Of a stretch of 64,000 bases of DNA, positions 20,081 to 49,451 are shown piece by piece. Source of the stretch: a virus; the IMG/VR virus record IMGVR_UViG_3300048438_000153, positions 62,001 through 126,000 of that record; one strand, given 5' to 3'. Within the stretch, counting starts at the first letter, position 1. Each line of letters opens with the position of its first letter. Made by a program: the position numbers and the translations under genes. The notes under the pieces are model-generated. The model was not told the origin of the DNA, did not search any database, and saw only the letters and a list, made by a program, of their open reading frames with translations.

Positions 20081-20401
20081 ATGAACGAATGGGTCGTATA
20101 TGTCATTCAGAGTCAGCAACCTCGAAAGACAGCAAGTGGAAAGCCTACTGAGGGATTCTTCTACGTTGGGTGTACTACAGATGTTAGCCGTAGACTGAGA
20201 CAACACAACGGAGAAATAAGAGGTGGGGGTAAATATACATCAAAGCATAGACCTTGGAAGCTCATGTGTACCTATGGCACATACGCTAACAGATCTGAAG
20301 CTATGAAAGCAGAGTTAGCTCTTAAGAAGAAGCGAGGTAAGGCTAGGTTATACTGGACAGAGGAACAGTCTAAATGGTGCAGAGGCAAGAACCTCATTTA
20401 A
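20081..20401 (+). CDS. GIY-YIG domain endonuclease
   Basis: 106 residues, essentially one GIY-YIG domain of the UvrC/SLX1 single-domain type. VVYVIQS at residues 5-11 takes the place of GIY, FFYVGCT at 27-32 takes the place of YIG, and it is followed by DVSRRLRQHN (catalytic Arg), a GGKYT turn, RPWKL and the conserved NRSEAMKAELALKK helix (Glu ligand region). These small proteins cut structured or nicked DNA. No separate DNA-binding domain is attached, so it is not a typical homing enzyme by layout. It stands alone on the plus strand between minus-strand genes and overlaps the convergent tagged gene by eight bases. A repair, degradation or recently mobile role are all possible. Confidence 0.85.
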   Translation: MNEWVVYVIQSQQPRKTASGKPTEGFFYVGCTTDVSRRLRQHNGEIRGGGKYTSKHRPWKLMCTYGTYANRSEAMKAELALKKKRGKARLYWTEEQSKWCRGKNLI

Positions 20402-21233
20402 GCTCTCTCACTTTGCCTTTCTTAAAAGAGGGCTCTATATCCCGTGTTTCGTATCGACCCTCTTCATTCCAACTTAGCTCTGTATAAAAGTATCTACCAT
20501 CAGCCTCAAAAGTAAGCTCTAAACCATCGGGATCTCTGTACAGGTCGAGATCTACCTTCTCAAATTTAGTCTGTATAGGTAAGCCATGTAGAGAAAGATA
20601 GTCTTTTAAAGCGGTTTCCAACTCTTCTGAGGTGACGTAAATATCATCTTCTCTATCTAACTCTCTCTGCATAAGAATGAGCATAGAGAAGAAACCAATA
20701 CCTCCCCCCGCTCTCTTCTCAAGAGACCCTGAATTCTTAGAGAGTAGCGCCTTGAGCTTCTCGTAGATCTCGTTGTTATTCTTACGATAGATCTCTCCTG
20801 AATCTGTGTGGAGAGAAAAGCGAGTGTCGCCATGTTGGAAACTATATATATTCCCAATGCCTCCCATACGTCTCCCACCACCTAAACTTGGGGATCTTCC
20901 CGTAGACCTTGCTCTCTGCATTAAGAACAGCGAAGGGTTCGCGCTTTTGTAATATCCGTCGTAGACCCTCTCTAAGTCTTGTATACACTTCCCTACGAAA
21001 TGGAAATGAACTCCATGAAATCTTACGTCCATCGTTATCTTCTTCTTGTCAGATAAGTCGATAGAAACATCAGAAACACCTCTTGTCGCTTTGACGTGGC
21101 TCTCTAGAAGTTTTTGCTCGCTCTCAAGAGTTACCTCTTCTCGACCCTTAAAAAGACCGAAGATCGCCTGCTTTTCGAGGCTTGCTACTCTCATCTCAAG
21201 GTAGTTGACTATTTCTGAAGCTGTTCTTCTCAT
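20394..21233 (-). CDS. TASEI-leader protein, 279 residues
   Basis: It begins MRRTASEIVNYLEMRVASLE, the leader shared with the proteins at 29386, 36865 and 48642. The body starts FGLFKGREEVTLESEQKLLE and continues with VSIDLSDKKKITMDVRFHG. The same order (FLNLFKS..EEES.E..IK, VSISKKGGLRINLIFRG) is seen in the 364-residue protein at 36865, so the two are paralogs beyond the leader. A glycine-rich spot (SLGGGRRMGGIG) lies near residue 120. There is no enzyme motif. GGAGAAAG precedes the ATG. Function is unknown; the shared leader suggests a common destination such as the virion. Confidence 0.65.
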   Translation of the reverse strand: MRRTASEIVNYLEMRVASLEKQAIFGLFKGREEVTLESEQKLLESHVKATRGVSDVSIDLSDKKKITMDVRFHGVHFHFVGKCIQDLERVYDGYYKSANPSLFLMQRARSTGRSPSLGGGRRMGGIGNIYSFQHGDTRFSLHTDSGEIYRKNNNEIYEKLKALLSKNSGSLEKRAGGGIGFFSMLILMQRELDREDDIYVTSEELETALKDYLSLHGLPIQTKFEKVDLDLYRDPDGLELTFEADGRYFYTELSWNEEGRYETRDIEPSFKKGKVRELK

Positions 21234-21288
21234 GTTCTTTCTCCGTTCAAGGGGCCGTCAATAAAGAAAGATGACTATAAAAGATTAA

Positions 21289-21540
21289 TCACTTAATCTC
21301 ATACATCTCAGGGAGAAACTCATCAAGTATTAACCGATGAGAGAAACCATCCCCTCGAACAATAAGTAAAGAGCTTGATAGGTAGTCCACACTATACTCA
21401 GGGTACATATTCTTGAGCATCCTATAAGCATCGTAAGGATAACCTAGAAAGAACAAAGATTTACCGTCAAGAGAGACTCGATCCTTATCGTGTCTACTCA
21501 TCTGAATAAAGATGTCCATCTTTGAGGGGTTTCTCTTCAT
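21289..21540 (-). CDS. Small hypothetical protein, 83 residues
   Basis: I choose the ATG at 21540 (MKRNPSKMDIFIQMSR) because GGGGAGG lies seven bases upstream; an in-frame TTG at 21555 is less likely. The product is soluble and mixed alpha/beta (SLFFLGYPYDAYRMLKNMYP, SLLIVRGDGFSHRLILDEF). No family is recognised. It sits 16 bases downstream of the HEXXH gene and likely shares its transcript. Confidence 0.55.
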   Translation of the reverse strand: MKRNPSKMDIFIQMSRHDKDRVSLDGKSLFFLGYPYDAYRMLKNMYPEYSVDYLSSSLLIVRGDGFSHRLILDEFLPEMYEIK

Positions 21541-21556
21541 AGAAAACCTCCCCAAC

Positions 21557-21955
21557 CTAGCGATCCTGATCTTTCTCTGAAGAGTCTAACCCACCAAGAG
21601 GGTAACTCATCCAAGAATACCTCTTTCTCGTGTCTAGGTAGTTGATGAACTTGTCACATTCCCAAGCCTCTTGCTCAAACCTGATGGCAAGGTAAGAGTC
21701 GCGGGTGAAACCCTTCTTTCTGACGATCGCGCTCCACAGATAGTCGAACAAGTAAATCAGTAGGAAGCCAACTACGAAAGTCTCAAGATACTGCTGAAAG
21801 TGAATCGTCTCATGCCTCTTGGTTTCCTCACTGAGCGTGCCCCTAGAAAACACGAAACAGAAGAGAGTGATCGCGCTGATTTCAATAGGGGCAAACTTTG
21901 ATAGCCATACGGGAATCTTAGAATTCTCGAAGAAAAACGGTTTTAAGCACTTCAT
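21557..21955 (-). CDS. Membrane protein with HEXXH metallopeptidase-like motif
   Basis: 132 residues. HETIH at 48-52 is a zinc-binding HEXXH motif, followed by QQYLE. FEQEAWE near residue 94 offers the third ligand glutamate. Two hydrophobic helices flank the motif (about 24-36 and 58-76). The same order, R-H-E-x-I-H-F-x-Q-Q then F-E-x-E-A, is found in a widespread family of small bacterial membrane proteins of unknown function, so this is probably a member of that family rather than a well-studied protease. GAAAGGAAAG precedes the start. Proteolysis of a membrane substrate is inference. Confidence 0.6.
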   Translation of the reverse strand: MKCLKPFFFENSKIPVWLSKFAPIEISAITLFCFVFSRGTLSEETKRHETIHFQQYLETFVVGFLLIYLFDYLWSAIVRKKGFTRDSYLAIRFEQEAWECDKFINYLDTRKRYSWMSYPLGGLDSSEKDQDR

Positions 21956-21970
21956 AAAGTCACTTTCCTT

Positions 21971-21980
21971 TCTCTGATAG
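21971..21980 (+). promoter_or_regulatory. Weaker copy of the promoter-like element
   Basis: TCTCTGATAG lies 49 nt before the 22030 start. It keeps the CTGATA core but lacks the final TATGG. Confidence 0.25.
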
Positions 21981-22029
21981 GTTTTCTATCTATCCCCATA
22001 AGAAAATAACCGACTAAGGGGCAGAGATC

Positions 22030-22518
22030 ATGAGCACACGAAGTAGAGAGTTTAGAGACACACACGCGACGATGGCTAAGCTATGTCAAGTCGCCATCCG
22101 AGAAGTCGTGAAAATTCTGAGTAAGACCCAAGACCCTCTCGTCAGAACCATCGCGATGAGAAAGTTTAAGAACGGCTACAGGCTTCCTAGAGATACCCGA
22201 AGAATCTCTTTAGAGTTTATTACTCTTGGGAGGATATACGCGGAGAAAGAACGGACTTATGGAGGAAGCCGAGTGCCTTTCAGCCGGGATAAGGTTCAAC
22301 TCACTCTTGGTCAGTCAGTGGAGGTCAACACTCTTCTCAGAAACGCGATTCTGTGGGTCTACAGGTTTTGGTCACCGACAGCAATGGCGAAGCTACTCTT
22401 AAGAGGCGGTGGCTTAGAGTTCGTGGATCTCCACATCAGAGAATACGCGCTCCTCAGAAACATCGGATTGATCCACCGCATGAGGTACAGAGAGCTGTTG
22501 AGGCTATTCTTCACCTGA
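22030..22518 (+). CDS. Hypothetical protein, 162 residues
   Basis: A basic helical protein beginning MSTRSREFRDTHATMAKLCQ, with an AGGGG ribosome binding site. The N-terminal half (residues 14-60) is helical. A VEVNTLLRNAILWVYRFWSP segment near residue 97 is hydrophobic but too short and polar for a clear membrane helix. The C-terminus repeats R-x-R-E-L-L-R-L. No family is recognised. It is followed after 64 nt by the SNF2 gene, which has its own promoter-like element. Confidence 0.5.
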   Translation: MSTRSREFRDTHATMAKLCQVAIREVVKILSKTQDPLVRTIAMRKFKNGYRLPRDTRRISLEFITLGRIYAEKERTYGGSRVPFSRDKVQLTLGQSVEVNTLLRNAILWVYRFWSPTAMAKLLLRGGGLEFVDLHIREYALLRNIGLIHRMRYRELLRLFFT

Positions 22519-22530
22519 ACACCATCTTTT

Positions 22531-22540
22531 TTCTGATATA
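22531..22540 (+). promoter_or_regulatory. Putative promoter element TTCTGATATATAAT
   Basis: Forty-two nt before the SNF2 start. The core runs into TATAAT, an exact bacterial -10, with the extended TG two bases upstream of TATAT. It is the strongest copy of the element. Confidence 0.5.
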
Positions 22541-22582
22541 TAATGCGCGTAACCACAACCACGCGCAGAGAAAGGACAGACG

Positions 22583-24175
22583 ATGGAAAGTGAAAAGCTA
22601 CTCTCCACCATCGAGAAACTAAGAAAGATCAGGACGAAAGAAGATCTCAAAGCACCCCCCTCAACGATTCTCAAGACTACCCTTGATAACGGCGCTCCAC
22701 TCACTTTGAGGCAGTATCAGATACAGGGGATTCTCCATCTCCTCGCCATGCCCCGATTCGTTCTCGGTGATGATACAGGTCTAGGCAAGACCTTGCAGAC
22801 GATATCAGCTCTTTCTTACTTGTGGGAGAAGAAGCCCGAAATCCCCGCCCTCATCTGCACCACCAAGAGTGCCGTGGGGCAGTGGGAATCAGAGTTTGCT
22901 CGATTCACTAATGGTGTGAAGATATTCAAGTGTCTCGGCACAAAGAAAAAGAGAGCTAAGATTCACGAGGAGTTTCAGAGCTACTCAGACGGACCGAAAG
23001 CTCTTGTGATGGGCTACCGTACCGCTGTCATGGACTTCCAACACCTACAGCACATGAACGGTCATGTGATGATCTTTGATGAGGCTACCGCTTTTAAGAA
23101 TGACTCATCTCAAGTCCATCAGGTATGTAAGCACCTAGCGGGATCTGCGGAGCGCGTTTGGAGTCTTTCTGCGACTATCATCAAGAACAGGCTCATGGAG
23201 GCGTGGGCGATCTATAAGGTCACTGTCCCTCACCTCTTCACGACTAAGACTCACTTTATGAGAGAATACTGCATCACCCGCGATCAGACCCTCCCTGGCG
23301 GTAGGCGACGCATTAAGATCGTCGTAGGCCACAGAAAGAGAGACATCGAGGCTTTTCGAGAGGTCATCGACCCCTATTTCATTGGGCGTCCCAAGCACGA
23401 AGTGGCTCAGGAGCTACCCCCTCTCACGACTAAGACAATCCCATGCCCCCTCTCGAAAGCTCAGAAAGCGAAATATGAGGAGGCGCTACAGGGACTCTTA
23501 GAGGTCATCGACCCCGAAACAGGTGAGGTGATAGAAAGAGAAGTGACGAAGCTCACAGCAGTCACCATCTGTCAGCAAATAGTCAATCACCCCTCTCTCG
23601 TTAACTGTGATGGAGACAGTGGGAAGCTCGACACTCTGATCGACCTCCTAGAGAATGAGTTGGACGGCGAGAAAGTAATCGTGTTCTCGCGCTTCAGGTC
23701 GATGGTTGATATTCTTGAAGCTGAGCTAGAGGGCAGAAAGATCAAGACCTGTCGAATCACAGGGGCGGAGAACGGCGATCAGCGCGTGGCGAGTCAGAAA
23801 GCATTTCAAGACCCTGAGAATGAGACGAGAGTGTGTCTCATCACAATGGCCGCCGCTGAGGGTGTCAACTTACAGCTTGCAAAGGCTGTTGTGTTCTACG
23901 ACACCCCTTGGAGCGCGGGTGACTACCTTCAGATTATTGGTCGCATGATCCGTATCGGGTCTATCCACGATAGGGTCTTTTCCTACCACATCTGCGCCCC
24001 CAAGACGATTGATGATCGCGTGATGAAAACACTAGGGGTCAAGATGAACCTCATCGAGTCTGTGCTCGGAAAGAGACTTAAGTCTGAGACAGATGGAGAG
24101 TCCGTTGTAGAGATGGGACAATCGGAGGTAGCCGACCTCTTTGATGGTCTTTTGGAGGACGCTAGAAGCCTGTAG
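22583..24175 (+). CDS. SNF2/RAD54-type DNA helicase-like ATPase
   Basis: 530 residues with the superfamily 2 motifs in order: Q-motif region LRQYQIQGI (42-50), Walker A GDDTGLGKT (62-70), motif Ib-like TTKSAVGQW, Walker B DEAT (166-169), motif III SAT (196-198), VIVFSRF (motif IV, about 365), AAAEGVNL (motif V, 423-430) and QIIGRMIRIG (motif VI, 450-459). The D-D-T-G-L-G-K-T form and W.QSE-type spacing point to the SNF2 group. Phage relatives include UvsW-like enzymes that remodel forks and recombination intermediates. It probably translocates on duplex or branched DNA during replication and repair. A plus-strand promoter-like element lies 42 nt upstream, and the loader-like gene follows. Confidence 0.9.
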   Translation: MESEKLLSTIEKLRKIRTKEDLKAPPSTILKTTLDNGAPLTLRQYQIQGILHLLAMPRFVLGDDTGLGKTLQTISALSYLWEKKPEIPALICTTKSAVGQWESEFARFTNGVKIFKCLGTKKKRAKIHEEFQSYSDGPKALVMGYRTAVMDFQHLQHMNGHVMIFDEATAFKNDSSQVHQVCKHLAGSAERVWSLSATIIKNRLMEAWAIYKVTVPHLFTTKTHFMREYCITRDQTLPGGRRRIKIVVGHRKRDIEAFREVIDPYFIGRPKHEVAQELPPLTTKTIPCPLSKAQKAKYEEALQGLLEVIDPETGEVIEREVTKLTAVTICQQIVNHPSLVNCDGDSGKLDTLIDLLENELDGEKVIVFSRFRSMVDILEAELEGRKIKTCRITGAENGDQRVASQKAFQDPENETRVCLITMAAAEGVNLQLAKAVVFYDTPWSAGDYLQIIGRMIRIGSIHDRVFSYHICAPKTIDDRVMKTLGVKMNLIESVLGKRLKSETDGESVVEMGQSEVADLFDGLLEDARSL

Positions 24176-24199
24176 AAAAACTGCTCTGACCTCCGCTTA

Positions 24200-24210
24200 T
24201 TCTGATATGG
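24200..24210 (+). promoter_or_regulatory. Putative promoter element TTCTGATATGG
   Basis: Thirty-seven nt before the start at 24248. It is the cleanest match to the shared element, placed just after the SNF2 stop. Confidence 0.5.
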
Positions 24211-24247
24211 GTAAGACATACTTACCACAGAGATGAAAGGAGAGGTC

Positions 24248-24985
24248 ATGGCGGTCTGCAAGAAGTGTCACGGACACGGTTATGTCCAAGTGGACGAGGG
24301 GCATTATGGGATGCCTCAAGCCGTCCCTTGTTCATGCGTGCTTAAGAGAGCCCTGAGCGTCCAAGCGAGAAAGGCTTGGGGAGGGCTCGAAATCGTACCT
24401 GTTAAGAGAAGCAGTTTACTCAAAGGAAAGATTCGCGAGAACATCGTAGTCACGGCGAACAAGGCTGATCTGATGATCCACCTCAGATCAGCTCTCGCAC
24501 ACCACGCCCGACCTGAAGAGTTCGTAAAAGTAGTTTCTGACGCAACTCTTATTTCTGCTTGGCTCTCAAACCTCGCGCGCTCTGACAAGGATGTGATCGA
24601 CCCCGACTACATCCGTGAGCTGAGAGTGGCGAGCTTAGAAGACTTGGCTGAGTCACCTACTCTCCTCATCATTCGACTTGGCGTTAAGACAGCTAGAAAT
24701 AGCGCGATGCCTGAAGTACTCGCTGAGACGATTGAGCTGAGACAACACTTAGGTAAGCCAACTTGGGTTGTGGAAGAAACAGATAAGCCCTTAGAAGAAG
24801 GTCATATTTCATGGTCTAGGGCTGTGGATGACGCGCTTGATGGTTGGGAGCAAGTACCTCTCATGGGTACAGCTAAAGCAACAAAGCCTATTCAGAGAAA
24901 GGGTGGAGGACTTACTGTTCAGGACGTAAGCTCCAACACCGCTCAAGGACTCCCTCAAGCCCGACATAAGACGATGAAACTATGA
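24248..24985 (+). CDS. Helicase-loader-like protein with zinc finger and degenerate AAA+ domain
   Basis: The start at 24248 follows AAAGGAGAGG, which an upstream in-frame ATG (24233) would place inside the gene. The 245-residue product begins MAVCKKCHGHGYVQ and has PCSC near residue 28, a four-cysteine zinc finger like that of DnaC/DnaI-type loaders. Residues about 85-200 follow the loader ATPase layout: VVSDATLISAWL, LLIIRLGVKTARNSAMPEVL, RQHLGKPTWVVEE. There is no Walker A, and the Walker B Asp is replaced (L-I-I-R-L-G). The gene overlaps the DnaB-type helicase by four bases, so it probably helps load that helicase without hydrolysing ATP. The loader role is inference from fold and neighbour. 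Confidence 0.6.
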   Translation: MAVCKKCHGHGYVQVDEGHYGMPQAVPCSCVLKRALSVQARKAWGGLEIVPVKRSSLLKGKIRENIVVTANKADLMIHLRSALAHHARPEEFVKVVSDATLISAWLSNLARSDKDVIDPDYIRELRVASLEDLAESPTLLIIRLGVKTARNSAMPEVLAETIELRQHLGKPTWVVEETDKPLEEGHISWSRAVDDALDGWEQVPLMGTAKATKPIQRKGGGLTVQDVSSNTAQGLPQARHKTMKL

Positions 24986-26493: not shown

Positions 26494-26503
26494 TGGAAAG
26501 AAA

Positions 26504-27012: not shown

Positions 27013-27048
27013 GTCTTACTTTAACACACACTCAAAAAAGAGGTGAAC

Positions 27049-28698: not shown

Positions 28699-29336
28699 GA
28701 GCTTTAAGCCCGTCTAATCGTAGGGTCTACCCTAACCAACCACAAAACAGCTCAGGCAAGTTGAGCAATAACTCTGAGTACTACGGAGACTTGACGGTCG
28801 CAGATAACAACATCTACCTCTACCAAGACATCACTCCGAAAGCGATGATGGAGCTTGGTATTGCGATCAAGAGCCTGAACAATCAGATTATCTCTCTCAT
28901 CAGTGAGCTAGAGATGTCGAGCGCGCCCACTATCCACCTCCACATCAACTCAGGTGGAGGGTGCGCTTTCAGTGGTCTCGCAGGAGCGAGCCATATCCTT
29001 AACTCTCAAATTCCTGTATCCACCTACGTCGAGGGAAGAGCGGCTTCAGCCGCTACTATTCTTTCTAGCGTGGGCGCGCACAGGTACATCACCGAACACA
29101 GCTTCATGCTAATCCATCAAGTCTCGACAGGTGTGTGGGGGACTTACGAAAACTTGAATGACGAGAAAGAAAGCATGGACTCTCTCATGGAGATGCTTGA
29201 ATCTATTTACCTCAAGCACACCAAGATGAAGAAGAAACAGCTCAAGCAACTCTTAAAGAGGGATCTTTGGATGAACCCTGAGAAATGCTTGGAGCTCGGG
29301 CTTGTTGACGAGATCATCAAGTACGAGCGCACTTGA
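28695..29336 (+). CDS. ClpP-like serine protease
   Basis: I place the start at 28695, the ATG that overlaps the preceding stop as ATGA, giving 213 residues. The ClpP fold is clear: IHLHINSGGG (81-89), GRAASAATIL with nucleophile Ser118, FMLIHQVS with His141, and LLKRDLWMNPEKCLELGLVD with Asp190. The whole catalytic triad is present, as are the Gly-Gly oxyanion-hole residues. Phage ClpP-like enzymes are usually prohead proteases next to capsid genes, but none is nearby here. It could mature virion proteins from a distance, or act on host or phage proteins early in infection. No separate AAA+ unfoldase is visible in the window. Confidence 0.85.
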   Translation: MRALSPSNRRVYPNQPQNSSGKLSNNSEYYGDLTVADNNIYLYQDITPKAMMELGIAIKSLNNQIISLISELEMSSAPTIHLHINSGGGCAFSGLAGASHILNSQIPVSTYVEGRAASAATILSSVGAHRYITEHSFMLIHQVSTGVWGTYENLNDEKESMDSLMEMLESIYLKHTKMKKKQLKQLLKRDLWMNPEKCLELGLVDEIIKYERT

Positions 29337-29385: not shown

Positions 29386-29736
29386 ATGAAAAGAACAGCA
29401 TCCGAAATTCTCAGTGACCTCGACAGGCGACTCGCACGTTTAGAAAGGACAGCATCAAGAGGTATAAGTGACGGCACTACAGAAGAGCTTCTTGACCGCA
29501 TCAACGACGAATACACCGAGTGGGTTGGGTGGCAATACCCGACGACTCTTAACCAAAGAAAAGACGGCGTTACCCTCGTTTCAGTCGAGGACTACTACGC
29601 AGTAATATGGGTCGGCTTCGGTGAGGGCGAAGACGAGATCATTGACATCACAAAGAATATGAGCAGAGCGAAGAGAATCTATCAGTCATTGAAGTTTGAC
29701 CCTATTCGCTACCCCCACTATCGCTTTAACACCTGA
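29386..29736 (+). CDS. TASEI-leader protein, 116 residues
   Basis: The ATG at 29386 follows GGGAGAAAG and gives the leader MKRTASEILSDLDRRLARLE, shared with 20394, 36865 and 48642. A second RTASRG follows at residue 21. The body is short: a helical EELLDRINDEYTEW, then a beta-like TLVSVEDYYAVIWVGFG. No domain is recognised. Unlike two other members it lies on the plus strand, downstream of the ClpP-like protease. A protease next to a tagged substrate is an attractive but unproven pairing. Confidence 0.65.
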   Translation: MKRTASEILSDLDRRLARLERTASRGISDGTTEELLDRINDEYTEWVGWQYPTTLNQRKDGVTLVSVEDYYAVIWVGFGEGEDEIIDITKNMSRAKRIYQSLKFDPIRYPHYRFNT

Positions 29737-29740
29737 ATCA

Positions 29741-30754
29741 TTAGCTCTGAGCATCAATCGCGTGACTAAGAATCGTCCCGTGATATAAGATATCTTTCAG
29801 GGTTTCCACGTCACTGACCTGTTTCGAGGTCACTCTGATGTGTGCCTCTTGATATGACCTCCCTGACACACTAGGGAAATCATATCGAAAGAACAGGATG
29901 TTCCCATCTTCCCCGATGAGAGTGAACCGTTCTTCAGACGCCTTCATAAACAGTGGCGAGTATTTTCTGATGAAAGTATTGATCTCCCGATCAAGAGCCC
30001 TCTCGTCTTTCACGGAAACGACCTTCTCAGAATACTGTCTTTTAGAAGGTGGCTTGAGAGGGTTCTTGTCTAAGAAAGACATCTCTAAGGTGTAAAAATC
30101 AGAGCTAGAGATCAAGTACATATTCGCGACTCTAATCGCGCTCGCTCTCTTCGTAGAGCCTATATGCTCTATCACAGACCTGTTGTTGTCGATAAGAACA
30201 ACATCCCCACTCTCTACAGCTTCATAGAGAGCTCCATCGACACGAGGATGGATAGACAAAATATCCTCTCCTAACATCGGAACACCGTCTAAAGAAAACA
30301 GAGTTCTCATAAGAACACTCGCGCTATCTACAATGGCTTCGGCGATATCTTCCACATAAGGCTTCAGACTGTATTGAAGATCAACGGTCGTAAAGCTGTA
30401 ACCTCTTGGATTGAGCGCGTCTACTTTGTTATGTGGCTGTCCCATAACTTTCTTAAAGATCGTCTTGAACTCCCCTACCTCCATCACAGTAAGAACAGGT
30501 TTGATACCCCCCTTTTTCATCTTTACCGCGCCCATTGTCTCGTCAAGAGAAAGGATCATATGCCACACTCCTCTTTCGCATTTAATGACCCAAGTGTCGT
30601 CTACAACAACCTGACCATTTTTGCGGTAGGGGATCTTTTTCTTAGCACTCCATGTACTTTTAGGGACGTGAGTCACAGACCAATCAAGAGAGGGGGTCTT
30701 TCTATTCAAAACGCCCACTACAGGATCAGCCCATTTCTCGTCTGCATACTCCAT
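29741..30754 (-). CDS. Hypothetical protein with internal RVAN tag, C-terminal domain shared with next gene
   Basis: 337 residues, starting at the ATG at 30754 that overlaps the upstream gene's stop (TGATG); a GTG at 30757 is possible. Residues about 200-337 begin KRASAIRVANMYLISSS and end LKDILYHGTILSHAI. The neighbouring 143-residue protein has the same order: a R-I-V-R-M start, E-x-x-F-E-K-A-L helix, and LLQILQYGTVFSHAL end. This is therefore a partial tandem duplication with an extra 200-residue N-terminal domain (CERGVWHMILSLDE, a lysine-rich KMKKGGIKP). No enzyme motif is seen. The internal tag is in the place where the shorter paralog begins. Confidence 0.55.
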   Translation of the reverse strand: MEYADEKWADPVVGVLNRKTPSLDWSVTHVPKSTWSAKKKIPYRKNGQVVVDDTWVIKCERGVWHMILSLDETMGAVKMKKGGIKPVLTVMEVGEFKTIFKKVMGQPHNKVDALNPRGYSFTTVDLQYSLKPYVEDIAEAIVDSASVLMRTLFSLDGVPMLGEDILSIHPRVDGALYEAVESGDVVLIDNNRSVIEHIGSTKRASAIRVANMYLISSSDFYTLEMSFLDKNPLKPPSKRQYSEKVVSVKDERALDREINTFIRKYSPLFMKASEERFTLIGEDGNILFFRYDFPSVSGRSYQEAHIRVTSKQVSDVETLKDILYHGTILSHAIDAQS

Positions 30755-34189: not shown

Positions 34190-36868
34190 ATGTTTGACGA
34201 CTTTCTCGCAGACATAAGACGACCTGTCATAGAGTCCTACGAATGGATGAAAGAATGTGACCTAATCTTAGGCACGAAAGAGAACATAACTCAAGCCATT
34301 GACGAGTGCATGGCGGTTGAAGTCTACGGTTGCGACATCGAGACTACAGGACTTGACAACCGCGTCTTTGAAGGGCGCACGATGGACTCTATCGTGGGTA
34401 TCGGGATCGCGCCATCTCACGACAAGGCTTATTACTTTCCTATCGGACACAAGTCAGGCTCAGAGTATAACATTCCTTGGTCAATCATCGGACGAGAGTT
34501 TGGGCGTCTGTTCGACCCTTCCACGAAAGCCCGACCTGTCTTCCACAACATCTCTTTCGACGCGCCTTTCTTAGAGTACAACGGCTTCTTCTCGCTCGGG
34601 AAAGATCGGTGGGATGACCACAAGAAATGGGAAGACTCTCTCATCATCAAGTACCTCCTCAACCCACGTCAAAAAGGAGGGCGTGGGCTTAAGGCTCTGT
34701 CAGACAAGCTCTGTGACATGAAGATGATTGAGCTCAATGAGCTATTCCCCCCTGAAGAGGAACAGCGAGACTACTCGACCATTGACCCTTCATGGCAACC
34801 TTGTGTACTCTACGCGGCGGCTGATCCTCTCTGTACTCTCAGAATATGGGATATCATGAGAAAGGAATACGAAGATGCGCCTGAGCACTCTGACTCGATG
34901 TATAACCTCGAAAAGATGTGCTGTATCGCCACCTCATGGATGCACCGATGCCGAGTGTATATTGACCCTGAGAAAGCGATGGAGTCAGCGATTGAAGGTC
35001 AGCGCCTATGGTGGGAGAGTCTACTAGAGGTATATAAGGGCGCGTCTAAGATTCTAGAGAGAGACATCACACCCTCTTTCGTCAAGATCATGCGCGATGG
35101 ATCAAGAGGTCTGATCGAGCCCTTCGACCCCCGAGCCATCTCTGAGGGAGGGAGCGCCAACTACAAAGTGATCGTACAGGAAGCTCGAAGATACGCGCAA
35201 AACACCGCACCTGATCCAACTCAAAAGATCAGTAAGAGTGTGGCTCTGCTCGGTAAGTCTGCTGGTACTGAGAAAGTGGAGTTTCCCTATACGTATGACG
35301 TTCTCTCTCCTCAACAGCTAGGTTTGCTCTTGAGAGAGTTGGGAGTAGATGGTCTGCTCGCCTCTGAGAAGTCAGGCCAAGTAGTCACTAAGGGAGAAGT
35401 TCTCGATGAGGTCATCGAGAAAAACTCTGAGAAACTCCCTTTCATGAAGAAAGTGAAGAACCTCCGTGTTCTCGTCAAGGCGCTCAGCCAATACCTCATC
35501 CCTTTCATAGAGGACATTGGATCTGACGGTACGCTGAAGCCGAAGTTCGATCAGTTCAGTGCTGACACAGGGCGTTTTTCGTGTAAGACTAACAGTAAGC
35601 CCCATATCGTGAGAGACGGCGGTTGTCGCGTACCTTTTCAGGGCATCCCCGCCTATGGAAAAGACAAAGACAAGAAGCCCGCGATCATTTCTTACATGAG
35701 AGATTGTATAGTCGCGCGCGAAGAAGGGTGGTGGCTGACCGCGATTGACTACGCAGGTGTAGAGCTAAGACTCGTAACTAACCTCTCGAAAGAGCCCCTG
35801 TGGATTAAAGCTTTCTTCGAGTGTTCAGACTGTGGGCAACAGTACCCTAGAGAGATGGGGGAAGATGAGATTCCCACACCGACTCCAACCTATTGTGTGT
35901 GTGGGTCGGATCGCATAGGTGATCTGCACACTGTAACTGCGGTTGCTTTCTACGGCGAGGGCGCTAAGGGAAAACCTGATTGGAAAGACAAGCGAGGGAA
36001 CGGAAAGGGATGTAACTTCGCCCTTTCTTACGGAGGCACAGGGAAAGCTGTTCAGCGCACTATCAAGTGCTCTGCTAAGGAAGGGGACGAAAAGTATAAG
36101 ACTTTCACGAGCACTTACAAGACACTCGCCTCTTGGTGGGGGAAACAGAACAAGTTCGCCCATAAACATGGCTATGTTAAGACGGCTTTCGGACGAGTTC
36201 AGCCCCTCCCTGATATCCACGACGAGGATTACAGAAAGTCCTCGAAAGAGGAGAGAAAGGCGGTGAATGGACCTGTTCAGGGAACGAGCGCGGATATCAC
36301 GAAGCTCGCGATGAGTCTCATCTACAGAGAGGTTAAGAAACGAGGGTGGTTCGATAAGCTCAAGATGATCCTTACAGTCCACGACGAGATTGTCTTTGAG
36401 ATCCATGAAGACGTGATCGGAGAGGCTATCCCTGTACTGACTCAGATTATGGCGAGAAACAAAGCAATCGCCAATCAGGGATGGGAAGTCCCTCTCCTTG
36501 TAGACGTAGAGATCGGAAAGACGTGGGGAGTGCCATACGACCTCAAAGACTTAAGGCGAGGGTACAAGGAAAAGCTCGTACCTGACGGCGTTGATGAAAA
36601 GGGGGAGAAGAAGTACAGAGAGGAGCGCGTTCCTGTGCCTGAATCACTCGCTAAGATTTTCTATGTGGGGAGTGAGGCTGATGAGCCTTCTTCAAGCTCG
36701 CCTGAGAAAGAAGAAGGCTCAGGTTCTTCATCCGAAAGCCCCTCTAAGACTTATGTGCTTAAAGAGCTTTCTCAGGACTCCGCGTTCGATTTGGGTATGT
36801 GGCTCTCCCATAATACGGACGGTGTTGTAACGTATGAGGGGAGAGACATCACGGCGCTGTTTTCTTAG
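34190..36868 (+). CDS. Family A DNA polymerase with 3'-5' exonuclease and zinc-ribbon insert
   Basis: 892 residues. Exonuclease motifs are intact: CDIETTG (Asp49, Glu51), HNISFDAPF (Asp124), YAAADPL (Tyr208, Asp212). Polymerase motif A is DYAGVELR (Asp520). Motif B is R-G-N-G-K-G-C-N-F-A-L-S-Y-G (Arg602, Lys606, Phe610, Tyr614), with Phe at the position equivalent to E. coli Phe762. Motif C is VHDE (731-733). Between motifs A and B, residues 545-571 hold C-x2-C and C-x-C, a zinc-ribbon-like insertion absent from the standard fold. The C-terminus has a Ser/Glu-rich linker (about 808-835) and a short folded end. It is the replicative polymerase of this phage. Residues 224-245 and about 310-400 contain further insertions of unknown role. 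The 3' end overlaps the convergent gene by four bases. Confidence 0.95.
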   Translation: MFDDFLADIRRPVIESYEWMKECDLILGTKENITQAIDECMAVEVYGCDIETTGLDNRVFEGRTMDSIVGIGIAPSHDKAYYFPIGHKSGSEYNIPWSIIGREFGRLFDPSTKARPVFHNISFDAPFLEYNGFFSLGKDRWDDHKKWEDSLIIKYLLNPRQKGGRGLKALSDKLCDMKMIELNELFPPEEEQRDYSTIDPSWQPCVLYAAADPLCTLRIWDIMRKEYEDAPEHSDSMYNLEKMCCIATSWMHRCRVYIDPEKAMESAIEGQRLWWESLLEVYKGASKILERDITPSFVKIMRDGSRGLIEPFDPRAISEGGSANYKVIVQEARRYAQNTAPDPTQKISKSVALLGKSAGTEKVEFPYTYDVLSPQQLGLLLRELGVDGLLASEKSGQVVTKGEVLDEVIEKNSEKLPFMKKVKNLRVLVKALSQYLIPFIEDIGSDGTLKPKFDQFSADTGRFSCKTNSKPHIVRDGGCRVPFQGIPAYGKDKDKKPAIISYMRDCIVAREEGWWLTAIDYAGVELRLVTNLSKEPLWIKAFFECSDCGQQYPREMGEDEIPTPTPTYCVCGSDRIGDLHTVTAVAFYGEGAKGKPDWKDKRGNGKGCNFALSYGGTGKAVQRTIKCSAKEGDEKYKTFTSTYKTLASWWGKQNKFAHKHGYVKTAFGRVQPLPDIHDEDYRKSSKEERKAVNGPVQGTSADITKLAMSLIYREVKKRGWFDKLKMILTVHDEIVFEIHEDVIGEAIPVLTQIMARNKAIANQGWEVPLLVDVEIGKTWGVPYDLKDLRRGYKEKLVPDGVDEKGEKKYREERVPVPESLAKIFYVGSEADEPSSSSPEKEEGSGSSSESPSKTYVLKELSQDSAFDLGMWLSHNTDGVVTYEGRDITALFS

Positions 36869-37959
36869 ATGCTCCAACCTATAGGGACGTATTTATCTTC
36901 AAGCCTCACGCCGTTGTAGGAGTACTGTTTCTTCTGAGGACCTATATACCTATCTCTTGTAAACTCTCTGTCAGAGTCTTCTATATACTCCTTAAGTTTA
37001 CGTCTCTCATGATCAGTCATCTTTCTTTTCTTCGGCTTATTGTCAACGTAGATGAGCTTCTTTTTGAGGACTTGCCTTAAGAAAGAGTAAGCGAGGTCAC
37101 TGTGGAGTGTGTTCCTTGCCTTCCTACCGTATGTCTCCTCTATAATGTCCGTCACCTCGTCAGCGTCAACAGCGAGGTGGGCGCTATCCGCCCAATCGTA
37201 AAGGTCTGAAGCGCCTTTTAAGAATGTCTTAATTTCAGACGAGTCAGAAAGACTAGCGAGCTTGAAATACACTTCGACCCCTCTGTACTGAAAGCAAATC
37301 GTATGGCTCTTTTCTTTTAAGAAAGAAAAGCCATGCCTCTTGAGGAGTTCATTTGATCTAAGGGTGTCTTGATACTCGGGCTTACTTTGATACATAGACT
37401 CAGAGTTCCATCTCTGATAGTATTCAGGAAACTCAGGGTACGCGCTCATCTTGTCGAGCCGAGCGATTCTCCCTCTAGAGCTATTCCTTTCTCCCCCTTC
37501 TAAATCGAGTAACTCCGTGAGCCCAATAACAGTAGAAAGAACAGAATAAAGCCCCTTTGTGGTGGAGATCACGACTGATTTCTCAAGTCCTCTTCTGTCA
37601 ATCTCATACCTAGTGATGGGGATCTGCCCCGACCTCAAGCCTGTGGGTCTAATTTTCGAGTCATAAACTCCGAATCTCTCTGTTTCGTCGTGAGTAACCT
37701 TTCCGTTAAAAACGAAAATCTCCCCCCGAAAGATAAGATTGATTCTGAGACCCCCTTTTTTTGAGATAGAGACATCGACTCGATCAACGTCGTCAAGGTT
37801 CGCTTTTATCGCGCCCTCAATCGACTCTTCTTCTTCTCTAGTGTAGCTTTTAAAGAGGTTAAGAAACCCTGACTCTGTTTCTGAAGCAAAGTGATCACCC
37901 TCAAGTCGGGCGACCCTGATCTCTAGGTCGGAAAGGATTTCTGAAGCTGTTCTTCTCAT
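36865..37959 (-). CDS. TASEI-leader protein, 364 residues
   Basis: It begins MRRTASEILSDLEIRVARLE, nearly identical to the leaders at 20394 and 29386. The following 130 residues match the 279-residue paralog in order (FLNLFKS, VDVSISKKGGLRINLIFRGE, a KVTHDETERFGVYDSKI segment, VVISTTKGLYSVL). The C-terminal half is extra: a helical QWRNSE-like region, a charged SGL/FLKEKSHTICFQYRGVEVYFK strand region and a lysine/arginine-rich KPKKRKMTDHERRKLKEYIE segment. No enzyme motif is seen. It is divergent from the 38028 gene. Virion or DNA-associated function is possible because of the basic region. Confidence 0.65.
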   Translation of the reverse strand: MRRTASEILSDLEIRVARLEGDHFASETESGFLNLFKSYTREEEESIEGAIKANLDDVDRVDVSISKKGGLRINLIFRGEIFVFNGKVTHDETERFGVYDSKIRPTGLRSGQIPITRYEIDRRGLEKSVVISTTKGLYSVLSTVIGLTELLDLEGGERNSSRGRIARLDKMSAYPEFPEYYQRWNSESMYQSKPEYQDTLRSNELLKRHGFSFLKEKSHTICFQYRGVEVYFKLASLSDSSEIKTFLKGASDLYDWADSAHLAVDADEVTDIIEETYGRKARNTLHSDLAYSFLRQVLKKKLIYVDNKPKKRKMTDHERRKLKEYIEDSDREFTRDRYIGPQKKQYSYNGVRLEDKYVPIGWSI

Positions 37960-44957: not shown

Positions 44958-44960
44958 GCT

Positions 44961-46184
44961 GTGTTTTTTGAGTACGAGAAAGAACTGCCTAAAACAGATC
45001 TCTCTGACTATAGTCTCCTCAAGAATGGGCAAATCTCTATACCTTCCTATGTATGGCGCGAGATTAAAAACAGCTTCGATAAGAAAGAGGTGATCGAGCA
45101 CATCTCTCAACTTATACAAGATCACAACCTCCCCTACCCGAGTAGGACATACACAAAAGCTGTACTCGACAGGGACTTCAGAAAGCTCAAGAGCGAGTCA
45201 TGTGGTGTGAAAGAGGGATCTTGGGAGTGCTTGAGGACGATCCCTAATGTCACTCTTAAATACCTTAATCGTCAGTGCTACATACAGGCTAGTCAACATG
45301 GTCTAAAAGTCTCGGATCAGCAGACGCATCTCTCTCGCATGAAATGCGCTCACTTCGAGCACAAGAGTCCGTACAGAGAATGGACTCGGCAAGGGTGCAA
45401 GTCGAAGGTCAGATACGTTCTAAGAGTGTTGTGGAGTCTATCAGAAGGAGACGCCCTTAAGAACGGTGTGTGCGAGAAGCAACTGAGAGACTGCTTGAGG
45501 TTGGGCAACTACATGGCGAGTCAGTTCAAGCCCTCATGCGCTAAGACCCTGTATGATTTCTTTCAGGCTAAGAGAGTCTTAGACCTAAGCTCAGGGTGGG
45601 GTGACAGGCTCGTAGGTTTTCTTGCGAGTGGGGCTGAGAGCTATGTCGGGATAGACCCTAACTCTGAACTCCACGAACCCTATCAGAAGATCGCTGACTT
45701 CTGTGACACAGGGAAGGAAACACGATTCATCTGTGATCCCGCAGAGGACGCAGACTTAACGGGTGTTGAGGTGGACTTCGTATTTACGAGCCCCCCTTAC
45801 TTTGACGTTGAAAAGTACAGTGAAGAAGACACTCAGAGTTGGAAACGATATAAGTCGAAAGACCTATGGCTGAATAACTTCTTTCTCCCATCGCTCACTA
45901 AGGCTTGGGAGGCTCTTTCTGAGGGAGGGAGGATAGCCATCAACATCGCAGACAAGGGTCACTCAAGAGAAGATGTGGGCGAGGACATCTGTAGCCCCAT
46001 GTTAAGACATATGGAGTCTCTAGGCGCTACCTATGAGGGGATTATCGGGTATAGGATGAACAAGAGGCCGGGTGACAGAATGGGCGCGGTTGGAGGCGCG
46101 GTTTTCTGTGAGCCGATATGGGTTTGGAGTAAGGGTGAAGCCCCTGATCCCAAGTGGACTCAAGACACCTATTTCGGAGTTTAA
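44961..46184 (+). CDS. SPPY-type DNA methyltransferase, paralog C
   Basis: 407 residues from a GTG start (MFFEYEKELPKTDLS), three bases after the PLP gene. KVSDQQT (116-122), SQFKP (187-191), motif I V-L-D-L-S-S-G-W-G-D-R-L (206-217; Leu-Ser replaces Phe-Ser-Ala), GIDPNSELHEPYQK (about 230) and TSPPYF (276-281) are present. The N-terminal 150 residues are the most cysteine-rich of the four copies, which suggests a different target-recognition surface. The tail is EPIWVWSKGEAPDPKW then TQDTYFGV. After the stop only one base separates it from paralog D. Methylation of DNA is probable; the target is not known. Confidence 0.72.
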   Translation: MFFEYEKELPKTDLSDYSLLKNGQISIPSYVWREIKNSFDKKEVIEHISQLIQDHNLPYPSRTYTKAVLDRDFRKLKSESCGVKEGSWECLRTIPNVTLKYLNRQCYIQASQHGLKVSDQQTHLSRMKCAHFEHKSPYREWTRQGCKSKVRYVLRVLWSLSEGDALKNGVCEKQLRDCLRLGNYMASQFKPSCAKTLYDFFQAKRVLDLSSGWGDRLVGFLASGAESYVGIDPNSELHEPYQKIADFCDTGKETRFICDPAEDADLTGVEVDFVFTSPPYFDVEKYSEEDTQSWKRYKSKDLWLNNFFLPSLTKAWEALSEGGRIAINIADKGHSREDVGEDICSPMLRHMESLGATYEGIIGYRMNKRPGDRMGAVGGAVFCEPIWVWSKGEAPDPKWTQDTYFGV

Positions 46185-46185
46185 G

Positions 46186-47364
46186 ATGTTTTTCGATTAC
46201 GAAAAAGAGATCACATCTCTCGATGAGATCAAGTATATTAAGAACGGTTATTTCCACATCCTCCCTAGTGAGTGGGAGATGCTTAGAAAGTCTTTTACCA
46301 AGGAAGAAATAAAAGACCATATCGCGCCCATCCTGAGTTCATTACCGTACCCCTATTTCGAGTATTCAGAGAAAGAGCTGAGGAGAGATTTCTCTAAGCT
46401 GAAATCACTCTCGAATAAACTCAAGCAAGGGGAATGGGTAGCTACAAGACAAGCAGCAGAAAGAGACACACTCTTTCTCGGTCAGAGTATCTATATGGAC
46501 TGCTACTACACAGGGAAAGGAATATCTGATCAGTACACTCAAGAGGCGCGCTTTAAATGCTCTTATAGAGCTGTCGGTAACTCCCCTTACGACGAGTGGG
46601 TCAGTGCGGACAAGAAGAACTCTTTCTTAAGATGTTTCTTCGGCATCTCAGAGAGGGACATCTACGAAAGAGGAGGAGTCAACAAGCAGACACTCAGGCG
46701 CGCTCTAAAGATGCACACATACACAGCGAGTCAGTTCAAGGCTGAAGCCTCTAAAACCCTGTATGATTTCTTTCAGGCTAAGAGAGTCTTAGACTTCAGT
46801 GCAGGATGGGGTGACAGGCTCGTGGGTTTCCTCGCTAGCGGAGCAGATAGTTATGTCGGGATAGACCCTAACTCTAAGCTACATGAACCCTATCAGAAGA
46901 TCGTCGATTTCTGTAACACAGGGAAGGAAACACGATTCATCTGTGCTCCCGCAGAGGACGCAGACTTAACAGGTGTTGAGGTGGACTTCGTGTTTACAAG
47001 TCCTCCCTATTTTGACATAGAGAGATACAGTGACGAAGACACTCAGAGTTGGAAACGATACCCTGAAATAGACTCTTGGGTCGAGGGCTTCTTCCTCCCC
47101 ACTCTAAGCAAGTGTTGGAGTGTTCTTTCTGAGGGCGGGAGAATACTTGTCAACATCGCCGATAAGAAGGGCAACGACATCTGTAGCCCCATGTTAAGAC
47201 ATATGGAGTCTCTAGGCGCTACCTATGAGGGTGTTATAGGCTACCGTATGTCAGAAAGAGGAGGGCAAAAGACCACCGTACCGAGCTGTGAGCCGATATG
47301 GGTTTGGTCTAAAGGCGACGCGCCCGAACCTAAGTGGACTCAAGACACCTATTTCGGAGTTTAA
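46186..47364 (+). CDS. SPPY-type DNA methyltransferase, paralog D
   Basis: I choose the ATG at 46186, two bases after paralog C, because it gives the family start MFFDYEKEIT; an in-frame ATG at 46072 inside paralog C is rejected. 392 residues. GISDQYTQ (111-119), SQFKAE (182-187), V-L-D-F-S-A-G-W-G-D-R-L (201-212), GIDPNSKLHEPYQK (225-238) and TSPPYFD (271-277) are all kept. From motif I to the tail it is the copy closest to A and C, while its first 150 residues differ. It ends EPIWVWSKGDAPEPKW then TQDTYFGV. Its stop lies three bases from the convergent histone-like gene. Confidence 0.74.
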   Translation: MFFDYEKEITSLDEIKYIKNGYFHILPSEWEMLRKSFTKEEIKDHIAPILSSLPYPYFEYSEKELRRDFSKLKSLSNKLKQGEWVATRQAAERDTLFLGQSIYMDCYYTGKGISDQYTQEARFKCSYRAVGNSPYDEWVSADKKNSFLRCFFGISERDIYERGGVNKQTLRRALKMHTYTASQFKAEASKTLYDFFQAKRVLDFSAGWGDRLVGFLASGADSYVGIDPNSKLHEPYQKIVDFCNTGKETRFICAPAEDADLTGVEVDFVFTSPPYFDIERYSDEDTQSWKRYPEIDSWVEGFFLPTLSKCWSVLSEGGRILVNIADKKGNDICSPMLRHMESLGATYEGVIGYRMSERGGQKTTVPSCEPIWVWSKGDAPEPKWTQDTYFGV

Positions 47365-47367
47365 AGC

Positions 47368-47562
47368 TCAGTCCTCTTTATAAGCCTCAAGAATCTCACC
47401 CCGAAGCGCCTTGAGCTGATCCATAGCTACCTTGAGTTGCTTACGGACGCGAGTTCCTGCTGAGCGGTTCTTCTTAGTGTCGATCTTCTGTGCGTCAGAG
47501 ACGACTTCTTCAGCAGTAAGAATAGTAGTGATTTCCTGTAGGCGATTAGAGATGTTACTCAT
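47368..47562 (-). CDS. Hc1-like histone/nucleoid protein
   Basis: The ATG at 47562 follows CGGAG; an upstream in-frame start is less likely. The 64-residue product is helical with a basic, lysine-rich C-terminal half: KKNRSAGTRVRKQLKVAMDQ then LKALRGEILEAYKED. The S-A-G-T-R-x-R-K-x-L segment followed by a L-R-x-E-I-L helix is characteristic of bacterial Hc1-type histone H1 homologs, which also occur in phages. It probably binds DNA and compacts or organises it. It is divergent from the HAD-like gene and lies at the end of the modification island. The match is short, so moderate confidence. Confidence 0.55.
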   Translation of the reverse strand: MSNISNRLQEITTILTAEEVVSDAQKIDTKKNRSAGTRVRKQLKVAMDQLKALRGEILEAYKED

Positions 47563-47682
47563 ATCTTTTCTCCGATATAGGTGTTGGTGTGTGGGAATGA
47601 GTCGGAACTGACTCATGAACATTTATACCGATCAGTTTTACTTTTATACCTAGTTAAGAGAAAAGTAGAAAGAGGGACACTC
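47563..47682. promoter_or_regulatory. Divergent intergenic region with small palindrome
   Basis: This 120-nt gap serves the histone-like gene (minus) and the HAD-like gene (plus). CCGATATAGG at 47567-47576 resembles the plus-strand promoter element, but lies over 100 nt from the plus start. ATGAGTC and GACTCAT (47597-47616) form a 7-bp palindrome with a 6-nt spacer, a possible operator. A TTTTATACC stretch nearer the plus start could be a second promoter. Confidence 0.35.
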
Positions 47683-48354
47683 ATGAGAACAATCACAGCA
47701 AGAGTCGCCACAAAGTTCTTAAAGAAAGCAGCGGAAAGTCTTGAGATACACATCTATGACTTCGATGGAACTCTGTTCCGTAGTCCTGAAGCTCCTGAGT
47801 GGTGGAGTAAAAGAAGATATGGTCAGTGGCACTCCAACCAATCTTCATTGGGTCAGCCCTTTGTGCCTAACAACCCTTCTTCAGACTATTGGATTAACGG
47901 CGTAGTAGAGGAAGCAAAGAAGTCCATAGCAGACTTGAATACTTGGGCAGTCATGTGTACAGGACGCATCGACACAGGAGCTCTCAGATACAGAGTGGCT
48001 GAGTTACTGAGGCAAGAGGGTCTTGATTTCGATCAGAACTTTCTTAACGACACAGGTAGGCTGACAAGACCCTACAAGAAAGTGACTCTAATCGAACTCC
48101 TGAAGCAGTTCCCACAGGTCAAGAAAGTCGTTGTGTGGGAGGACACTCAGAAAAACCTCGACGCGCTCGAAAGCATCTGCGACAGGATCGGGATCGAGTT
48201 TGAAGGGAAGCTCATTTCTGAGAGGCTTCTCTCTTCAAACCACATCTCAGAGGATGAATACATAGACTTTCTTAGAGGAGAGCTCTCCGCTAAAGAGTTC
48301 ACTCAGATCTATAAGGCTCTACAGAAGAGTAGAAAGAGAAAGCAAGAATTATGA
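47683..48354 (+). CDS. HAD-superfamily phosphatase-like protein with RVAT tag
   Basis: I choose the ATG at 47683 (AGAGGG upstream), giving 223 residues that start MRTITARVATKFLKKAAESL, a form of the shared R-V-A-S tag. HAD motif I is IYDFDGTLF (Asp26, Asp28, Thr30), motif II is MCTGR (Thr93), Lys133 or a neighbour could be motif III and WEDTQKN (152-158) is motif IV. The DFDGTLFRSPEAPEWW region and a cap insertion resemble the HAD domain of Swiss-army-knife RNA repair proteins, suggesting a polynucleotide phosphatase. A small-molecule phosphatase is also possible. It overlaps the next tagged gene by four bases. Confidence 0.7.
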   Translation: MRTITARVATKFLKKAAESLEIHIYDFDGTLFRSPEAPEWWSKRRYGQWHSNQSSLGQPFVPNNPSSDYWINGVVEEAKKSIADLNTWAVMCTGRIDTGALRYRVAELLRQEGLDFDQNFLNDTGRLTRPYKKVTLIELLKQFPQVKKVVVWEDTQKNLDALESICDRIGIEFEGKLISERLLSSNHISEDEYIDFLRGELSAKEFTQIYKALQKSRKRKQEL

Positions 48355-48671
48355 GAAAGACAGCCTCTTCAAAGAGAGTCGCAAAGATGTACTTCTTAGC
48401 GAGCACAAACTTGCCTCTCTTAGAGGAAGCCTTACCAAACACCTTCTCAGAAATCGAGCCCTTTAACCGAGTCTCTTGTAGTCACGACATTATGGAGAGC
48501 CTCAAGGCTGAGAAAGAGTTCAACCAAGAGACTCTCTTAAGGGTCTTGTCTGAGTACACTCAAGTAGATACCAACCTTGTCATGGCTGATGTCTCTCACT
48601 TATTCTCAGACGTGGGAGTAGCTCAGAAAGAAAAGCTCTTATCAGCTCTCACCACAGATAGAGAGCTGTAG
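48351..48671 (+). CDS. Tagged hypothetical protein, 106 residues
   Basis: It begins MRKTASSKRVAKMYFLASTN, combining an R-K-T-A-S start like the TASEI leader with an R-V-A-K-M-Y-F helix like the RVAS tag. The body is helical (LLEEALPNTFSEIEPF, ETLLRVLSEYTQV, EKLLSALTTDREL) and without known domains. It overlaps the HAD-like gene (ATGA) and runs 30 nt into the 3' end of the convergent WGR gene. Confidence 0.55.
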   Translation: MRKTASSKRVAKMYFLASTNLPLLEEALPNTFSEIEPFNRVSCSHDIMESLKAEKEFNQETLLRVLSEYTQVDTNLVMADVSHLFSDVGVAQKEKLLSALTTDREL

Positions 48672-49451
48672 AGTGAGGTAGGTAGAAAGAGAGTTAAGCT
48701 CTTTCACTACCTTGAAGGGGTCGAACTTAAGACGACGATTATCACCTTTAAGTCTAGAAAGAGGCTTTCGGAGTTTTTTCTGAACCTCTTGAGCCATTGA
48801 CTCTTCAAGCTTTGACGTAAGCGCGAAGGCTGACTCAAGATCCTCGATCAAGTCTTGACCAACTTGACCTTGCTCTGCGTCAAGAACAGCCTCTTCAAGT
48901 GCTCTCTTAAGCTTCATAAGAACAGGCTTGCAAGAGATGACTGATTGGTTCGCCCACGAGCCTGCGTGAGACTCTAGACCCACAGGATACTGACCGAGAG
49001 GGAGCTTCCTGTTGTTTGGAGCGCGGTGGTAGTCTCCAAAGGCAGAAATATAACCCTTCTTAACCTTACTTAGCTCAAGGCGTTGAAGCTCGTACTTTGC
49101 ACCCGCGAGGTTCTTGAAGGTATCGCGTCTCTCTTGGAAACGAGGCCCAAGACGACCATACCTCTTGATGAGTGTGTAGCCCCCGACATTCTGAGGGTTC
49201 TGAACGATCAGCATCTCGTAATACTTAGACTGATTCTTCTCGCTATCAATCTTGTAAAGCATGGAGGCTTCCCCCTCCCTTGCTTTCTGACGTGTAAGAC
49301 CCTCAGATTTGAGGTAGGGCTTACCCGCAGCAGTCTTATTGATTTGTTGAGAGGCGCGCTTCGCCATAGCCTGACGAACATAAGCTCTTTTCTCTAGATA
49401 CTCGATGCGGTCTTCAAGGGCTGTCAGATTTTCTGAAGATAACCTATACAT
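48642..49451 (-). CDS. WGR-domain protein with TASEI-like leader
   Basis: 269 residues. It begins MYRLSSENLTALEDRIEYLE, a divergent copy of the TASEI leader, followed by KRAYVRQAMAKRASQQ, a second helical tag-like region. Residues about 75-135 form a WGR domain: KYYEMLIVQN, GYTLIKRYGRLG, RRDTFKNLAGAKYELQ, KVKKGY. WGR domains occur in PARPs and bacterial MolR-type proteins and bind nucleic acids. There is no PARP catalytic domain. The C-terminal part (about 175-269) is helical. The ribosome binding site sits in a hairpin (49456-49497). A DNA- or RNA-binding role inside the virion or host is inference. Confidence 0.7.
   Translation of the reverse strand: MYRLSSENLTALEDRIEYLEKRAYVRQAMAKRASQQINKTAAGKPYLKSEGLTRQKAREGEASMLYKIDSEKNQSKYYEMLIVQNPQNVGGYTLIKRYGRLGPRFQERRDTFKNLAGAKYELQRLELSKVKKGYISAFGDYHRAPNNRKLPLGQYPVGLESHAGSWANQSVISCKPVLMKLKRALEEAVLDAEQGQVGQDLIEDLESAFALTSKLEESMAQEVQKKLRKPLSRLKGDNRRLKFDPFKVVKELNSLSTYLTLQLSICGES

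Follow-up and report, generated by a model that had tools for sequence, protein, structure and literature searches.

Leader proteins of the window and the record

We analyzed a 64,000-nucleotide stretch of viral DNA, here called the window, that covers positions 62001 to 126000 of the 275,102-bp virus record IMGVR_UViG_3300048438_000153. Four of its genes, of which three lie on the minus strand, encode proteins that begin with a common 24-residue N-terminal tag, which we call leader A. Its consensus is MRR(T/S)ASE(I/V)(I/L)xxLExR(I/V)ARLE. Positions below are those of the window unless the record is named, and lengths are in amino acids (aa).

20394..21233, minus strand: leader-A protein of 279 aa, N terminus MRRTASEIVNYLEMRVASLE; leader codons 21162-21233; body related to that of the 36865 product
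29386..29736, plus strand: leader-A protein of 116 aa, N terminus MKRTASEILSDLDRRLARLE; leader codons 29386-29457, ending ERTAS
36865..37959, minus strand: leader-A protein of 364 aa, N terminus MRRTASEILSDLEIRVARLE; leader codons 37888-37959
48642..49451, minus strand: leader-A protein of 269 aa, divergent leader MYRLSSENLTALEDRIEYLE, WGR-domain body; leader codons 49380-49451

An initial annotation had described one opening pattern on these four otherwise different proteins, and the translations bear it out in all four. The 116-aa protein starts at the ATG at 29386, not at the TTG upstream at 29302. The bodies differ as described. Those of the 20394 and 36865 proteins fall into one phmmer cluster, with 25% identity along the full alignment. 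Neither the 116-residue body nor the WGR body (PF05406, E 2.6e-13) is related to them.

We also retrieved the rest of the record and ran the leader profile over all frames of the 275,102 bp. The profile found 12 leader-A proteins, 4 of them in the window and all with the tag at the N terminus (E 3.5e-13 to 4.5e-4); the next-best candidate scored E 0.39. Among the 266 proteins called in the record by a simple script, 12 had the N-terminal pattern, compared with 0 of 53,200 shuffled N termini (first 40 residues, 200 shuffles each). Therefore, the leader is not a product of chance. A blind search for N termini common to proteins with dissimilar bodies returned leader A as its largest cluster, with 11 proteins.

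Conservation and distribution of leader A

We scanned the leader alignment against 2.9 million viral contigs. It matched 138 stretches, of which 135 were confirmed and the best 80 kept. Related uncultured viruses carry leader A on more than 100 further proteins, mostly with unrelated remainders. The final set of 120 non-redundant leader proteins was collected across IMG/VR, whose records are possibly incomplete. The profile search of the genome and its relatives, which the initial annotation had put forward as a check, gave 9 to 31 copies in each of four other contigs, in addition to the 12 in the record: 31 in a 375,691-bp contig, 17 in one of 290,179 bp, 12 in one of 226,698 bp and 9 in one of 143,151 bp. 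The tag is N-terminal in essentially all of the collected proteins. Of the bodies, 114 were long enough for comparison, and these formed 86 clusters (phmmer, E 1e-3), some of which remote homology could fuse.

When 87 leader proteins were compared with Pfam and PHROGs, no family matched two or more of them; the leader is therefore not itself a known domain. The initial annotation had held that membership in one known larger domain family would count against it, and no such family emerged. Pfam recognizes only a handful of the 87 bodies, among which WGR and cupin are clear. No relative of leader A was found in 84,980 prokaryote species genomes, which does not fit a bacterial secretion or sorting signal, and tblastn did not find it in 50,697 phage records. 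We found no paper describing the leader in the open-access literature.

Across the 120 leaders, most of columns 1 to 20 carry 2.0 to 4.3 bits of information. Columns 21 to 24, with the pattern [RK]-Q-A-[SGA], carry 1.2 to 2.2 bits, and columns 25 to 40 carry at most 0.6. Identical leader residues are encoded by different codons in 45% of comparisons. This result indicates that the peptide itself is under selection, and not that the DNA was copied recently. The exception is a pair of neighboring genes at 140934 and 141744 of the record, which also have their upstream DNA in common. A given body may have leader A or lack it: the HIQAKSYDR body, which has leader A in L021, starts in L019 and L030 with just a short RIAT core (E 2e-56).

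We considered that leader A might be a selfish or recombination-prone sequence with no function, or a coiled-coil oligomerization segment of one fast-evolving family. The shared upstream DNA of that pair would fit, as would the finding that 59 of the 120 leader genes have another within 1.5 kb. However, the codon differences point to old conservation at the protein level, and among the bodies are folds with no relation to each other, WGR and cupin for example. We regard this explanation as highly improbable. In one contig region (L020:6780-14785), six leader or leader-like genes cluster on a single strand, resembling a cargo island.

The mean hydrophobic moment of the leader is 0.53, compared with 0.28 for shuffled sequences and 0.26 for the bodies. 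This agrees with the amphipathic helix that the initial annotation had suggested. The leader probably forms such a helix over about 20 residues, with A5, I9, L12, I16, L19 and A23 on one face.

An upstream element also accompanies the leader genes. The pattern GTTTnTTTAT lies about 60 nucleotides upstream of 41 of 89 leader genes in the relatives, compared with 32 of 851 others. Among these 32 are several that are tail, neck or structural genes or further leader genes. Two promoter-like elements stand before leader genes of the window.

21261..21269, minus strand: promoter-like element TTTCTTTAT, starting 36 nucleotides before the 20394-21233 gene
49497..49505, minus strand: promoter-like element GTTTTTTAT, starting 54 nucleotides before the 48642-49451 gene

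A longer upstream block, TAGTTTnTTTAT ... AAGTGATCTCTTTAACC, is conserved before leader genes in many loci, for example L059, L068 and L034, and could be a phage-specific promoter.

Head genes and the [RK]-x-A-S motif

The major capsid protein of the record belongs to phrog_2522, the type of Bacillus phage G, Tunturiibacter phage Tunturi_5 and mycobacteriophage I3. It is 89% identical to that of LR745208, an uncultured 485-kb phage, 47% to that of Tunturi_5 and 38% to that of phage G. This is not a phiKZ-type phage. The record encodes a head maturation protease at 186675-188093 (phrog_18299, E 1.6e-15). The same protease is present in all five leader-A genomes (62 to 66% identity in the other four), and that of LR745208 is 44% identical. 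Pfam did not recognize the protease, capsid and portal proteins; PHROGs did. In L067, the protease homologue (870 aa from the first Met) has an intein-like insertion of about 400 residues located precisely at the conserved SMG|C site, with the ends CFVPNTPITLGDG ... GVAVHN. The terminase large subunit at 193473-196607 of the record (minus strand; L012:16473-19607) also seems to be interrupted, at its GRRSGK/TT motif, by an intein-like insertion with the ends CVTGDTLIPTPGG ... FTNHN.

Leader A contains the motif [RK]-x-A-S at residues 3 to 6 and again, as [RK]-Q-A-[SGA], at residues 21 to 24. The proteome of the record contains this motif 138 times against 52 expected, and similar patterns, for example [RK]-x-S-A or [DE]-x-A-S, are near expectation. 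We based this evidence on contiguous gene blocks (portal-to-capsid, early, replication and tail); the early and replication labels are our own, given by gene content and position and not by expression data. The portal-to-capsid block has 33 occurrences against 6.3 expected, and the leader proteins after residue 24 have 6 against 0.9. The left early genes (1 against 2.4) and the replication genes (7 against 4.4) are not counted as enriched, and the tail blocks are enriched 1.5- to 2-fold. This common signature ties the leader proteins to the head block. An earlier tally on a set of head proteins (41 against 4.6) was not relied on, as the set had been picked partly after the motif was seen.

The leader might instead direct proteins to a different place or step, such as the tail or baseplate, a membrane, an intracellular replication compartment or a common partner, for example a chaperone or a phage RNA polymerase. 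One helix on many unrelated bodies would suit any address tag. However, [RK]-x-A-S joins the leader proteins to the head block and not to the tail, early or replication blocks, and another destination seems improbable to us.

Within the head block, the motif recurs at particular places. Cross-contig alignments place NISREAS before the conserved C-terminal segment of the scaffold candidate (184640-186685 of the record) in 9 of 10 sequences, with KVAS in the tenth, and RVAS or RIAS about 25 residues from the N terminus of the head protease in 7 of 8. These are predicted sites, and they sit where maturation cuts would be expected. In leader A, the drop in conservation coincides with the terminal [RK]-x-A-[SGA] element. 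Strict [RK]-x-A-S occurs within residues 19 to 36 in 30 of 120 leader proteins, compared with 1, 3, 0, 0 and 1 of 91 to 116 proteins in five later 18-residue windows.

The initial annotation had proposed a different cut, after A-S-E, by a phiKZ-type prohead protease. A-x-E is indeed present at residues 5 to 7 in 112 of 120 leaders. The SPN3US protease cleaves after A-x-E, and Glu is also the residue after which the phiKZ and T4 enzymes cut (PMC10052503, PMC9026906). However, the phage has a capsid protein and a protease of the phage G/Tunturi type. In head proteins, on a set picked partly after the [RK]-x-A-S motif was seen, A-x-E occurs 49 times against 46.0 expected, and [SAG]-x-E occurs 120 times against 121. 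Only 12 of the 19 members of a second leader class, leader C (below), have A-x-E. Cleavage at residue 7 would also leave the conservation of residues 8 to 24 unexplained. We consider this version of the cut distinctly improbable.

RTAS-like stretches had also been noted in the EF-hand, C39-like and 48351 products. They are real, and they form part of the genome-wide [RK]-x-A-S enrichment.

50397..51095, minus strand: EF-hand protein with an internal KRTAS site
51113..51952, minus strand: Peptidase C39-like protein with leader-like N terminus MRRMSSLGRSSIRGLEERL...MRRTAK, internal KTAS and C-terminal ERVASAYINNH
48351..48671, plus strand: 106-aa protein, N terminus MRKTASSKRVAKMYFLAS

Cores resembling RVASxYL are also found C-terminally or between domains, in the products of 188096-191497 and 169737-171383 of the record and of 29741-30754 and 51113-51952 of the window. 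The 188096-191497 product has the C-terminal end KKVASRYLRERKDRRG. A short R-V-A-S core, leader B, opens four other proteins of the window.

11882..12448, minus strand: leader-B protein with the core at its N terminus (MSIRVASRHM)
15121..15630, minus strand: protein with N-terminal leader-B core MKPCERVASMYLSA
17713..20010, minus strand: 765-aa protein opening with leader-B core MSASRRVASRYLKA; in L019 its C-terminal half stands alone as a leader-B protein
47683..48354, plus strand: HAD_SAK_1 protein with N-terminal leader-B core MRTITARVATKFLKKA

In the sister phage LR745208, leader A is absent and a different leader takes its place. A leader of about 29 residues, MTTLRSKLIRLAHENPALRPQLLPLLKEA or close variants, is present on 11 proteins of this unannotated record (leader C; L127-L136), at or near the N terminus in 10 and internally, at residue 351, in 1. 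The 8 bodies compared are mutually unrelated. The two leaders are alike in their N-terminal position and unrelated bodies, and the capsid proteins of their phages are 89% identical, whereas the sequences of the leaders differ. Both classes have an early R-x-A and tend to end in [RK]-x-A. The leader C class is also found near the N terminus of three proteins of IMGVR_UViG_3300048438_000153. A 516-aa protein at 174527-176077 of the record (minus strand) contains the second leader motif three times, twice N-terminally and once C-terminally, and this is kept in L028 and L038. It is a possible core protein or docking hub.

A predicted head-targeting tag and its known counterparts

We consider it probable that leader A is a prohead-targeting tag that functions like the capsid-targeting sequence of phage T4 and is trimmed by the head protease. 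The trimmed packaging signal of the initial annotation is retained as the best explanation of the sequence data. We propose that the leader helix would bind the scaffold or core, or the inner shell, during head assembly, and that any protein fused to it would therefore be packaged. The head protease would then trim the leader during maturation, most likely at [RK]-x-A|[SGA] in residues 21 to 24, perhaps with a second trimming at R-T-A|S near the N terminus. The freed bodies may stay with the DNA and then be ejected into the host, like the T4 internal proteins.

Several observations weigh against this proposal. Of the 120 leaders, only 74 have a recognizable loose site at positions 20 to 24. 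The major capsid protein is usually the main substrate of a head protease, and here it has no strict [RK]-x-A-S, only a conserved KLAAS. LR745208 as a whole is only weakly enriched in the motif (104 against 79), a further difference between leader C and leader A. GTTTnTTTAT is not directly in front of the capsid, scaffold and protease genes. A blind shared-N-terminus search of the cultured phages Tunturi_5 and G gave no comparable cluster, and we therefore know of no cultured phage that appears to have such a leader. AlphaFold2 modeled the 20394 family (4 sequences) with a mean predicted local distance difference test score (pLDDT) of 39 and the head protease (6 sequences) with a pLDDT of 42; both models were unusable, and nothing was drawn from them.

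The capsid protein also bears on a second possibility, namely that the tag stays uncut. The helix would then be a plug that permanently binds a core, shell or tail protein, with [RK]-x-A-S as a docking motif, like the cargo-loading peptides of bacterial microcompartments or encapsulins. The lack of a strict motif in the capsid protein would fit, as would the R-x-A inside the conserved leader in 119 of 120 and the internal and C-terminal copies of the motif (the end of the 188096-191497 product; RVASAYINNH of the C39-like protein). However, conservation stops at [RK]-x-A-[SGA], for which a cut site is the simpler account, and the scaffold and protease sites lie in linkers, as maturation cuts would. 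We think an uncut tag unlikely, although it ranks second after the trimmed tag.

The trimmed head-targeting tag has its closest parallel in T4, where a capsid-targeting sequence of 10 to 19 residues on diverging bodies brings internal proteins into the core and is removed by gp21 at [L/I]-x-E (PMC9026906). As with IPI, IPII and IPIII of T4, one short N-terminal peptide stands on differing bodies (12 proteins in the record, 120 overall, 86 body clusters), the cargo is diverse among relatives, and head targeting followed by trimming is predicted. Leader A differs in its unrelated sequence, its 24 residues, its 9 to 31 carriers per genome, its predicted [RK]-x-A-S site and its phage-G-type capsid. 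The leader ends in ARLE-[RK]QA[SGA], usually with Arg two before Glu-20, and so lacks the gp21 site there; in head proteins, [LI]-x-E occurs 69 times against 57 expected.

In phage P1, the first 30 residues of DarB package a reporter, the presumed head address being a stretch of at most 30 residues, and the study found the Dar N termini to have no consensus (PMC9024508). Both signals are N-terminal and are predicted head addresses, whereas leader A is one consensus on many proteins. The SPN3US propeptides of gp45 and gp225 have 20 and 24 residues and are cut after A-x-E (PMC10052503). Propeptides of the SPN3US/phiKZ kind are also N-terminal and of similar length, and they are removed from internal head proteins. 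However, they differ in the A-x-E cut and in the capsid and protease family (the capsid protein here is phrog_2522, not of phiKZ type), and they are not described as one sequence on many proteins. By this comparison, leader A may work like a capsid-targeting sequence but lies outside the T4 and phiKZ families in sequence, capsid type and motif.

More tentatively, and short of what we would call probable, a lineage-specific and exchangeable tag (leader A here, the unrelated leader C in the sister phage) may load dozens of unrelated proteins into each head in a branch of uncultured huge phages related to phage G. In this scenario, a protease with a previously undescribed [RK]-x-A|S specificity would strip the tags of scaffold, protease and cargo. 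If so, the tag would be a readable list of injected proteins.

Most proteins that huge phages package and inject have no known counterpart, which makes them hard to predict. If leader A is a packaging tag, its 24-residue profile would pick out predicted injected proteins from sequence alone, more than 100 of them and nearly all without a recognized family. The head-targeting reading would also provide a testable head-protease specificity, perhaps a means of bringing proteins into very large heads, and a second system, built independently, that parallels capsid targeting in T4. Because the tag most likely sorts proteins into the head, it could reveal what such viruses carry into their hosts.

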